Of a DNA stretch of 64,000 nt, positions 20,999 through 43,472 are shown in pieces. Both the position numbers and the translations under genes were made by a program. How positions within the stretch are numbered: the first letter of the stretch is position 1; each line of letters begins with the position of its first letter. The DNA lies in contig NZ_SNUQ01000003.1 of the NCBI RefSeq assembly GCF_012027555.1, forward strand, positions 124,001 through 188,000. Reading direction: 5' to 3'. The notes beneath the pieces are model-generated. The model had not been told where the DNA came from and did not search any database. It saw only the letters and a list, made by a program, of their open reading frames with translations. This stretch comes from Thermococcus sp. CX2. Lineage in GTDB: Archaea > Methanobacteriota_B > Thermococci > Thermococcales > Thermococcaceae.

Positions 20999-22807
20999 AT
21001 GAGAGTGTTCGTTGCTGATACGAGTGTTATAGTTGATGGCCGCCTTACGCAGTTCCTGTCAACACTTGAGGACAAAGTTAAGGTCGTCATCCCTGAAGCA
21101 GTCATTGCCGAGATAGAGCATCAGGCCAATGAAGGGAAGGCTATAGGTCATGTGGGACTTGAGGAGCTCAAGAAGCTCCGTGAGATGTCCACCCAAGGAA
21201 AGATACTCCTCGAGTTCTACGGCGAGCGGCCCGAGCTCTGGCAGATAAGTAGAGCGAAGGCTGGAGAGATAGACCACATGGTTAGGGAGGTCGCTCAAAC
21301 GCTGGGCGCAACGCTCATAACTGGTGACCAGGTGCAGAGAGACATAGCCCTCGCCAAGGGTATAGACGTGATTTACCTGACGGCCAAGAAAGAAGTCAGG
21401 CACCGCTTGGAGGACTTCTTTGACGAGACCACGATGAGCGTTCACCTGAAAGCTGGCTTAAGGCCGATGGCAAAGAAGGGAAAGCCAGGTGAGTGGATGC
21501 TCATTCCAGTTCGCGACGAGGTTCTGACCGATGAAGAGCTCGAAGAGATCGCCGATGACATAGTCGAGCGCGCGAGGCGTGACCCAGAATCCTTTATAGA
21601 ACTCGACGAGCCTGGAGCGACCGTCGTCCAGCTAAGGAACTACCGTATAGTTATCGCCAAGCCGCCCTTTGCCGACAGGATTGAGATAACCGCCGTTAGA
21701 CCAGTCACGAAGCTGAGTATAGAGGACTACGATCTGAGCGAGAAGCTCTTGGAGAGGCTCACGGACAAGGCGGAGGGTATCCTGATAGCCGGCGCCCCTG
21801 GAGAAGGCAAGACCACCTTTGCCCAGGCTTTGGCTGAGTACTACGCCTCTATGGGCAAGATAGTGAAAACCATGGAGAAGCCGAGGGACCTGCAGGTGAG
21901 CGACGAGATAACCCAGTACACGGCTTTGGCCGGTAGAATGGAAAAGACTGGAGACATACTCCTCCTCGTCAGGCCGGACTACACGATATTCGACGAGATG
22001 AGAAAGACCAGCGACTTCAAGATATACGCTGATCTGAGACTGGCCGGCGTCGGAATGGTCGGTGTCGTGCATGCCACAAAGCCGATAGATGCAATTCAGA
22101 GGTTCATCGGAAGGGTCGAGCTGGGAATGATACCCCAGATAGTCGACACGGTAATCTTCATTAAGGCCGGAAGGGTCGCCAAGGTTCTGACCCTTGAATA
22201 CCTCGTTAAGGTGCCAACCGGCATGAAGGAGGAGGACTTGGCCAGGCCCGTCATAGAAGTCAGGGACTTTGATACCGGCGAGCTGGAGTACGAGATTTAC
22301 ACTTACGGCGAGGAGATAAGTGTTGTCCCAGTGAAGAAGGAGGAGAAGGCTCCAGCTTTACGGCTCGCGGAGAAGAGGCTCAAGCAGGAGATAAAGAAGT
22401 TCCTGCCAGATGTTTACGCCGAGGTCGAGATAGTCAGCCCGCACAAGGCGGTAATCTACGCCGACGAGTTCGACATTCCGGCGATAATAGGCAAGAAGGG
22501 CAAGCGCATCACTGAGCTTGAGAAGCGCATAGGAATAAGCATAGACGTCAAGAGCTTCGCCGAGAGGGAAGCGGCAAAGCCGAAGGAGAAGATACCCGTA
22601 GATGTGGAGGAAAAGAAGAAGACGATAGTGCTCAGGGTTTCCCCAGACTACGCCAAGAAGCCGCTCAAGTTCTACGGCGGCGAGCAGTACGTCTTCACCG
22701 CAACGCCAAGCAAGAAGGGCCTCGTCAAGGTAAGCAAGAGCACACCGATAGGGAAGGAGCTGAAGAGGCTCCTTGATGCGGGCATTCCGATATGGGCCTC
22801 GGCCTGA
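20999..22807 (+). CDS. PIN domain-VirB11/PilT-like ATPase-KH protein
   Basis: A 602-residue fusion conserved in Archaea. An N-terminal PIN nuclease-like domain (VFVADTSVIVDGRL, then acids in IDHMVRE and TLITGDQVQRDIA) occupies about 1-140. A RecA-like secretion-type ATPase follows (about 250-440) with Walker A GAPGEGKTTFAQAL and Walker B-like YTIFDEMRKTSD. A KH RNA-binding domain (about 480-545) has the loop IIGKKGKRI, and a basic C-terminal segment ends the protein. ATG 20999 follows GAGGTGAG. The combination suggests an ATP-driven RNA-processing or remodelling factor. Divergent from the MinD-GPN pair. Confidence 0.88.
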   Translation: MRVFVADTSVIVDGRLTQFLSTLEDKVKVVIPEAVIAEIEHQANEGKAIGHVGLEELKKLREMSTQGKILLEFYGERPELWQISRAKAGEIDHMVREVAQTLGATLITGDQVQRDIALAKGIDVIYLTAKKEVRHRLEDFFDETTMSVHLKAGLRPMAKKGKPGEWMLIPVRDEVLTDEELEEIADDIVERARRDPESFIELDEPGATVVQLRNYRIVIAKPPFADRIEITAVRPVTKLSIEDYDLSEKLLERLTDKAEGILIAGAPGEGKTTFAQALAEYYASMGKIVKTMEKPRDLQVSDEITQYTALAGRMEKTGDILLLVRPDYTIFDEMRKTSDFKIYADLRLAGVGMVGVVHATKPIDAIQRFIGRVELGMIPQIVDTVIFIKAGRVAKVLTLEYLVKVPTGMKEEDLARPVIEVRDFDTGELEYEIYTYGEEISVVPVKKEEKAPALRLAEKRLKQEIKKFLPDVYAEVEIVSPHKAVIYADEFDIPAIIGKKGKRITELEKRIGISIDVKSFAEREAAKPKEKIPVDVEEKKKTIVLRVSPDYAKKPLKFYGGEQYVFTATPSKKGLVKVSKSTPIGKELKRLLDAGIPIWASA

Positions 22808-22866
22808 TTTTGAAAACTTTTTATAATTTGATTTCTTCTTTTCTTTATTGGTACTGGCCGCTGGGA

Positions 22867-23064
22867 GTGTGTCACAAGGTATGGAAGGATAAGGTGTTCT
22901 GGATCCTTGCCGTTGGAGGCTTCCTCGTGGCACTAGCGGGGATATTCGTGGAGAGCAGCCTAACGGTTATAGTCGTTGGAAACACGATGATGTTCTTTGC
23001 TCTGGTCTATCTGGCCATCAAAACTTTCGAAAAGCGTTGTGGTGGCCAAAAAGAGAAATCTTGA
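22867..23064 (+). CDS. Small two-helix membrane protein, unknown function
   Basis: About 65 residues from GTG 22867 (MCHKVWKDKVF...), with two hydrophobic segments (FWILAVGGFLVALAGIFV and LTVIVVGNTMMFFALVYLAI) and a basic cytosolic tail. A TATA-like TTTTTATAATTT at 22816-22827 implies transcription from about 22850 and disfavours longer starts. No family recognised. Its 3' end meets a predicted C/D guide RNA on the other strand. Confidence 0.55.
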   Translation: MCHKVWKDKVFWILAVGGFLVALAGIFVESSLTVIVVGNTMMFFALVYLAIKTFEKRCGGQKEKS

Positions 23065-23126
23065 TGGCTCAGCTGCGAGGGTACTCATCACACCTCAGCT
23101 AGCGAAATTGTCGTCATCGCCGGATT
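23064..23126 (-). ncRNA. C/D-box guide sRNA (predicted), D' guide fits 23S rRNA
   Basis: On the minus strand: box C GCGATGA (23120-23114, one change from consensus), a 15-nt guide, D' CTGA (23098-23095), a 3-nt spacer, C' GTGATGA (23091-23085), a guide of exactly 12 nt (23084-23073) and D CTGA (23072-23069). Short GGC/GCC flanks could form the terminal stem. The D' guide is complementary to UAGCGAAAUU, which I know as a highly conserved stretch of 23S domain IV. By the box-plus-five rule the target would be the C in that stretch, near E. coli C1934. The D guide would pair with CUGCGAGGGUAC. Confidence 0.82.
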
Positions 23127-23169
23127 TAGTTCTCGGAAGCTTTTTTAACCCTTTTCCGAAGGCCCAATC

Positions 23170-23724
23170 ATGTTAGTGCTGGCCTCCGCAAGTCCGAGGA
23201 GAAGGGAAATACTTGGCAGGTTCATAAAGGAGTTCAAGGTTGTCCCGAGCAATGCGAGCGAGGAGTGCTCTCTGACTGAGCCGAAGGCTTACGTCGTTGA
23301 GCTTGCGAGGAGGAAGGCGAGGGAGGTCTATGGGCGAACGGGTGGCACAGTCATCGGCGCCGACACCGTAGTATCAATAGACGGCCACATACTTGGCAAG
23401 CCAAGGGATGAGGAAGAGGCCTACAAAATGCTCAGGCTCCTCAGCGGCAGGGTTCACCGCGTTACAACCGGCTACTGCATAATCCACGAGGGGAAAGAGC
23501 ACTGCGGGGCGGTCGTTACCGAGGTGAAGTTCCGCGAGCTTAGCGACGAGCTCATATGGGCCTACATAAGGACGGGCGAGCCCATGGACAAGGCCGGGGC
23601 GTATGGAATTCAGGGGAAGGGCGGGCTTTTGGTCGAATGGATTAAGGGTGACTACTACAACGTGGTCGGCTTTCCTATCGAGATAATACTGAAGTTGAGG
23701 GAGCTTGGCTTTGAGGTTTTATAA
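23170..23724 (+). CDS. Maf-family nucleotide pyrophosphatase
   Basis: Maf proteins hydrolyse dTTP/UTP or modified NTPs to monophosphates, cleaning the nucleotide pool. The 184-residue protein has the family start MLVLASASPRRREIL, the metal- and substrate-binding GADTVVSIDGHILGKP and the C-terminal KAGAYGIQGKGG and YYNVVGFPI. Length is normal. Its stop overlaps the convergent PHP gene by 6 bp at TTATAA. Confidence 0.93.
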   Translation: MLVLASASPRRREILGRFIKEFKVVPSNASEECSLTEPKAYVVELARRKAREVYGRTGGTVIGADTVVSIDGHILGKPRDEEEAYKMLRLLSGRVHRVTTGYCIIHEGKEHCGAVVTEVKFRELSDELIWAYIRTGEPMDKAGAYGIQGKGGLLVEWIKGDYYNVVGFPIEIILKLRELGFEVL

Positions 23725-39234: not shown

Positions 39235-39304
39235 TGTGCCCCCGGGGAGCGAAGGGAGGTCACAGCTCGCCGAGGCGCTCTCCTCCCCGCGGTTTCCCGG
39301 GGGC
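39235..39304 (-). ncRNA. Candidate single-hairpin H/ACA guide sRNA
   Basis: In this gap, GC content rises sharply. The minus-strand RNA 39304 to 39235 has a perfect 9-bp basal stem (GCCCCCGGG with CCCGGGGGC) followed immediately by ACA. Above it is an internal loop (AAACCGC / TTCGCTC) that could be the pseudouridylation pocket. An upper stem GGGAGG/CCTCCC follows, then a GA-containing asymmetric loop (AGA / TGTGA) compatible with a kink-turn, and a small capped stem (AGC-GCC). Stem of 9 bp plus ACA and 70-nt size match archaeal H/ACA guides. Target not identified. Confidence 0.6.
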
Positions 39305-42232: not shown

Positions 42233-43472
42233 CTTTTTAATTCTCTGGGGCCTTATTGCAACCTTCCACGGCCCCAAACCAGCCTTTGACCGCGGCCGTC
42301 TCTTTCAATTCTTCTGGGGTCTTATTGCAACAGGAAGGTGGGGGAATGAAAGGAGACACGCGCGGGTTTCAATTCTCCTAGAGTCTTATTGCAACAGACT
42401 ATAGCCGGGAACGAAAGACAGCTTAAGAAATACTTTCAATTCTCCTAGAGTCTTATTGCAACACCCTGAAGCCTAAATACTTCAAGAGGCGTCAGCTTAC
42501 TTTCAATTCTCCTGGAGTCTTATTGCAACGCTCACTGACGACGACCTCTTTGACATCATCAACTACCTCATCTTTCAATTCTCCTAGAGTCTTATTGCAA
42601 CGTCAATGCCCACATCCGGATTAGCCATCGTAACAATCCTTTCAATTCTCCTAGAGTCTTATTGCAACTATAGCAAATGACGAACCACCACCCTACGCAC
42701 TACTACTTTCAATTCTCCTAGAGTCTTATTGCAACTGTCATTGTGCATGATGTCAGGGGCCATGACTAGCTTCTTTCAATTCTCCTAGAGTCTTATTGCA
42801 ACAAGGACTAGACTCTTGTCAGGGCTTTTAACGATCTGCTTTCAATTCTCCTAGAGTCTTATTGCAACTGTACGTCCCAGCCGTGTCGTAGACCCTGATG
42901 TAGTCCTTTCAATTCTCCTAGAGTCTTATTGCAACCTTATTTTATTTTTTCTCGTGGAACACTTACTATCACTTTCAATTCTCCTAGAGTCTTATTGCAA
43001 CAATTATGTCTTGAAGGCGCTTTTTTATGCCCTCAATACTTTCAATTCTCCTAGAGTCTTATTGCAACCATCTACAGAGACAGGAGAGTGATACAATGAT
43101 AACCGCTTTCAATTCTCCTAGAGTCTTATTGCAACTTGGTGTAGTTGGTTGTGATGTTCGAGACGACAGTCCCGCTTTCAATTCTCCTAGAGTCTTATTG
43201 CAACACATCGAAGTCGTTGAGGCCTTTGAGGTATTGGGTGCTTTCAATTCTCCTAGAGTCTTATTGCAACGTTGTTTTTGCGTTTTAGGAAGTCGTTAAT
43301 GAACTCGACTTTCAATTCTCCTAGAGTCTTATTGCAACAGTTATCACAAGAATTCAACTGAGTCTTTTAAGGTGCTTTCAATTCTCCTAGAGTCTTATTG
43401 CAACCGACAAGAACGATGACCGCCTGTGGATCCACGTCCTTGCTTTCAATTCTCCTAGAGTCTTATTGCAAC
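42233..43472 (-). CRISPR. CRISPR array, 19 repeats and 18 spacers, transcribed leftward
   Basis: Thirty-base repeats read on the plus strand as CTTTCAATTCTCC then TAGAGTCTTATTGCAAC. In crRNA sense (minus strand) they begin GTTGCAATAAGACTC and end GAATTGAAAG, the Thermococcales form. Repeats start at 42233, 42302, 42366, 42433, 42500, 42572, 42639, 42706, 42773, 42839, 42906, 42972, 43039, 43106, 43175, 43241, 43309, 43375 and 43443. Spacers are 34-42 nt, mostly 36-38. The first two repeats are degenerate (TGGGG for TAGAG; the first also lacks a base), the third begins with G and the fifth has one change, marking the leader-distal end at the left. No cas gene is in the window. Confidence 0.98.

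Follow-up and report, generated by a model that had tools for sequence, protein, structure and literature searches.

The small RNA gene encoded upstream of maf in Thermococcus sp. CX2 is an ortholog of sR39, an RNA family already known in Rfam, and it very probably serves as a double guide on domain IV of 23S rRNA, directed to C2039 and G2011. Thermococcaceae likely keep two such double-guide sRNAs, which have a D' guide for C2039 in common and D guides three nucleotides out of register (G2011 and G2008). This pair appears to turn over, with sR39 lost, decayed or split by an insertion in 21 of 74 near-complete genomes, these 21 keeping the second RNA, and with the D' guide of the second RNA slid by two bases to A2037 in Pyrococcus, where sR39 is always retained.

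The sR39 gene of Thermococcus sp. CX2

Within the window (the whole stretch of 64,000 nucleotides that was analysed), the gene occupies positions 23067..23121 of the minus strand. It matches the Rfam model RF01122 (sR39) over its full length, model positions 1-56, with 75.7 bits against a gathering score of 50 and an E-value of 1.3e-16 for the whole 64-kb window; a standard Rfam scan detects it. The first-pass annotation had proposed a C/D sRNA with four boxes and a 12-nt C'-D spacing on this strand at 23064-23126. All of these features were found, and the RNA does lie inside these bounds, the best bounds being narrower. Box C, GCGATGA (23114..23120), is followed on the minus strand by the 15-nt D' guide spacer CGACAATTTCGCTAG (23099..23113), box D' CTGA (23095..23098), a D'-C' gap of 3 nt (GGT), box C' GTGATGA (23085..23091), the 12-nt D guide spacer GTACCCTCGCAG (23073..23084) and box D CTGA (23069..23072), and closing GGC/GCC flanks make up a terminal stem. 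The complete minus-strand sequence reads GGCGATGA-CGACAATTTCGCTAG-CTGA-GGT-GTGATGA-GTACCCTCGCAG-CTGA-GCC. The locus thus has what characterizes an archaeal C/D box sRNA, namely boxes C, D', C' and D in order, guide-bearing spacers that measure at least about 12 nt, and guides complementary to rRNA with a Watson-Crick pair at the box-plus-five position. The secondary-structure z-score was uninformative, as expected for C/D RNAs.

Box C had been described as deviating at one base. In the Rfam alignment it is the normal box C of the family (GGCGAUGA), and we regard it as typical because the RF01122 consensus GGCGAUGAaGAcAAUUUCGCUAGCUGAaaaguUGAUGAgUACCCUCGCAACuGAGC includes the same box C together with both guides found in CX2. 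Both guide sequences are kept in the Rfam alignment and in the 50 sR39 loci compared, and the CX2 RNA differs from the family only in the D'-C' gap, in single spacer bases and at position N+1 of the D guide, which is ordinary variation between species. The general Pyrococcus C/D model RF00095 (snoPyro_CD) shares the architecture and the terminal stem with the CX2 RNA, but its guides are unrelated, and the score of 39.5 bits is below its gathering score of 45. The RNA named sR39 in PMC4644070 was rejected as the same RNA, being an unrelated RNA of Methanopyrus. When a pattern combining box C with the D' guide was searched for, 90 of 94 family genomes had it, with one or two copies each, and none had the reversed pattern, which is far beyond chance. 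Gene, boxes, spacing, conservation and complementarity are established by these observations, and the small RNA, though real, is an ordinary one for Thermococcus-like archaea.

Target of the D' guide

Targets were sought in the genome's own 16S, 23S and tRNA sequences. This alignment, which had been proposed as a check of the first reading, places both guides on 23S domain IV and yields no comparable tRNA site for the D guide. The D' guide AATTTCGCTA forms ten contiguous Watson-Crick pairs with 23S positions 2036-2045 (UAGCGAAAUU), so that the domain IV target given in the first-pass annotation holds in the organism's own 23S, and N+5 falls on C2039. Since the position is counted from the U of AAAUUCC, which we take to be E. 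coli m5U1939, C2039 corresponds to E. coli C1934, the base for which methylation had been predicted by the box-plus-five rule. The description of a 15-nt D' guide stands for its inner part, as 10-11 nt of the spacer can pair and the outer part is variable and unpaired.

The D' match is by itself suggestive only, because 5.7% of permuted D' guides reach the observed score somewhere in 16S plus 23S (p ~0.06). The target is nevertheless convincing, since the 11-nt guide core AATTTCGCTAG is 100% invariant in the 50 sR39 loci, in which the D'-C' gap and the flanks vary; since the target is invariant as well, the 23S stretch around both targets showing no difference among 30 of 31 family genomes and differing outside the targets in the remaining one; and since the D guide fits 28 nt upstream. 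A longer D' pairing, in which CGAC pairs with GUCG over a 4-nt bulge in the target, was rejected, as the bases outside AATTTCGCTAG vary across the 50 loci.

The D guide and the double-guide reading

The D guide, for which the first-pass annotation gave no target, fits the same 23S domain. The segment TACCCTCGCA of its spacer is nearly invariant. The guide TACCCTCGC pairs with 23S 2009-2017 (GCGGGGGUA) by eight Watson-Crick pairs and one G.U, with G2011 (E. coli G1906) at N+5, and this site precedes the D' site by 28 nt. Of permuted D guides, 0.2% have a match not more than 32 nt from the D' site and 1.7% one within 100 nt. In four sR39 loci of Methanocaldococcus, scoring 63-73.5 bits, TACTCCCGC takes the place of TACCCTCGC as D guide; both changes pair, in the same register and again with exactly one G.U, as judged from one Methanocaldococcus 23S with a target identical to that of CX2. 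No comparable D-guide target was present among 44 distinct tRNA sequences, and tRNA targets were rejected on this ground. An exact genome search with TGCGAGGGTA gave four matches, one of them the sRNA gene itself, and the reversed control gave three, so that there is no excess.

Dennis et al. (2015, PMC4644070) define double guides by targets within 100 nt, with relaxed pairing rules. With its D and D' targets 28 nt apart, sR39 is a double guide by this definition, resembling the double-guide C/D sRNAs of other archaea described there, which likewise have two targets not more than 100 nt apart. The same authors name helices 68-71 of domain IV a methylation hotspot, and the domain IV methylation cluster has been placed at the subunit interface (PMC7994747).

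Genomic context and candidate promoter

The gene is flanked on the plus strand by a small open reading frame of 90 aa (22792-23064), hydrophobic-looking and with no Pfam match, and by maf (23170-23724; Pfam Maf, E 7e-61), in keeping with the previously suggested location between a small membrane gene and maf. The 3' end of sR39 abuts the stop of the small reading frame, and some 50 nt separate its start from the start codon of maf, the two genes being divergent. At every checked locus outside genus g3 of the genome set, which we take to be Pyrococcus, sR39 adjoins maf.

Upstream of sR39 lies an AT-rich, TATA-like element GGTTAAAAAAGCTTCC (23135..23150, minus strand) that is conserved among relatives, with a conserved TTAAA about 25-30 nt from the RNA. 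Because the reverse of this element is upstream of maf, it may serve both divergent genes; in most genomes devoid of sR39 a TATA-like stretch is still present at maf. According to the review of Breuer, Gomes-Filho and Randau (PMC7994747), only ~20% of archaeal C/D genes have a TATA-like motif of their own, so sR39 would belong to a minority. A sigma-70 promoter scan, which does not cover archaeal promoters, found nothing. Elsewhere in the window, the minus strand carries an H/ACA guide RNA at 39235-39304 (Rfam Pab160, 84.4 bits) and a CRISPR array of 17 repeats at 42366-43472 (Rfam type CRISPR-DR6).

A second C/D sRNA with the same D' guide

The sR39 scan of the CX2 genome also gave a sub-threshold match outside the window, at G000:C3:84964-85035 on the minus strand, which represents a second C/D sRNA ('type 2') directly downstream of a CDP-alcohol phosphatidyltransferase gene. 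It scores 36.9 bits with RF01122, under the cut-off, and is not called by Rfam. Its sequence, GGGATGACGAAAATTTCGCTAGCTGA-AACCGCGCTTCGCGCGGCACC-GTGATGAGCCCTGCCGTTACCGACC, has a hairpin between D' and C'. The D' guide AATTTCGCTA for C2039 is common to both RNAs and their D guides lie on the same G-rich stretch, whereas the locus is different and the D guide CCCTGCCGTT is shifted by 3 nt, forming ten pairs including one G.U with 23S 2005-2014, with N+5 at G2008. The pairing of the second sRNA with the same two 23S segments supports the double-guide reading of sR39. For comparison, the text of PMC4644070 names no Thermococcales and lists same-site redundancy for only two of its seven species.

The second sRNA is variable among relatives. 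Its D' box is degenerate in many of them (GCGA, GTGA, ACGA), and some have a short stem between D' and C', either GGC/GCC or GCC/GGC, that is, in both orientations. The wobble U of its D guide is replaced by C in two relatives, which results in full pairing. Almost all D guides directed to the GGGGG run (23S 2005-2017), in sR39 as well as in the second sRNA, keep exactly one G.U. Where in the duplex it lies varies from family to family and from lineage to lineage, and a few genomes depart from the single wobble. Perhaps this G.U prevents slipping of the register.

Distribution and turnover in Thermococcaceae

A model of the second sRNA was built and used, together with the D' pattern, to search 94 Thermococcaceae genomes, and presence was counted in the 74 near-complete ones. 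Both RNAs are found in 44 of these genomes, the second alone in 21, sR39 alone in eight and neither in one. All eight genomes counted as having sR39 alone are Pyrococcus-like, and the second RNA is still there, with the D' guide TTTGCTACC (TCGCTACC in one). This guide has slid by two bases on the same 23S target, and N+5 has moved from C2039 to A2037. With the general Pyrococcus model RF00095 these RNAs score 41-57 bits, most of them above the cut-off of 45.

Among the relatives, one genome (G042) retains a decayed copy of 29.9 bits, and in another (G077, C1:1694700-1695600) an insertion of ~400 nt splits the gene exactly between D' and C'. A CRISPR-DR6 array is located close to the decayed copy and maf on contig C1 of G042. 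We considered whether genomes are never without both guides as a sign of selection and rejected the argument: one genome in 74 lacks both against ~2.7 expected under independence. This difference is not significant, nor do the genomes represent independent samples.

Alternative readings

The decay and splitting of sR39 in several relatives, in addition to its loss, would fit a fortuitous box pattern or a dead gene that yields no functional RNA in CX2 either. We consider this extremely improbable, since the CX2 gene has every box and both guides intact and a conserved TATA-like element upstream of it. The D' guide could also act mainly on 16S, with the 23S match being secondary: CUGGCGAAAU, at positions 544-553 of the organism's own 16S, pairs with it from N+1 to N+10 by nine Watson-Crick pairs and one G.U (N+5 = C548), and this stretch is conserved in 30 16S sequences of the family. 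The 23S duplex, however, has one Watson-Crick pair more and lacks a wobble. The N+1 base, for which 16S but not 23S offers a partner, varies freely in the second sRNA, and both sRNAs have D guides that land next to the 23S site and not near 16S 544, all of which makes a primary 16S target very unlikely.

A larger, still minor, chance must be given to a D guide that is empty or aimed at a tRNA or another rRNA site, which would leave sR39 a single guide for C2039. The D duplex is just nine base pairs long with one wobble, isolated sites at 23S 2366, 23S 2956 and 16S 610 score equally well, and in most species N+1 and N+2 of the guide form no pair or a mismatch. We nevertheless find this reading unlikely, as no tRNA comes close among the 44 distinct sequences, the nearness of the D site to the D' site is improbable by chance according to the permuted guides, the changes in the Methanocaldococcus D guide preserve the register, and the D guide of the second sRNA lands on the same 23S stretch. 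The double guide on C2039 and G2011 remains the preferred interpretation of sR39.

Proposed mechanism and significance

As far as can be judged from sequence, expression, protein partners, methylation and a possible role in folding would be as follows. A TATA-like promoter of its own, divergent from maf, probably drives transcription of the short non-coding RNA, whose C/D and C'/D' motifs would bind L7Ae, Nop5 and fibrillarin. The D' guide on UAGCGAAAUU, in the H71 region, is predicted to direct 2'-O-methylation of C2039 (E. coli C1934), and the D guide, on GCGGGGGUA 28 nt upstream at the junction of H68 and H69, that of G2011 (E. coli G1906). By holding both 23S segments simultaneously, the RNA may also aid folding of the subunit-interface region.

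Taken alone, the sR39 of CX2 confirms an expected rRNA-modification guide, a finding of low interest because the RNA belongs to a known family. Less ordinary is that most of these genomes possess another guide RNA at a different place, likewise directed to C2039. The redundant pair provides a natural series, comprising genomes with both guides, with either one alone, and with one guide slid by two bases. Such a series could show whether methylation at the subunit interface persists as the guide RNA changes, and whether selection preserves the bridging of two segments by two guides rather than the methyl group.
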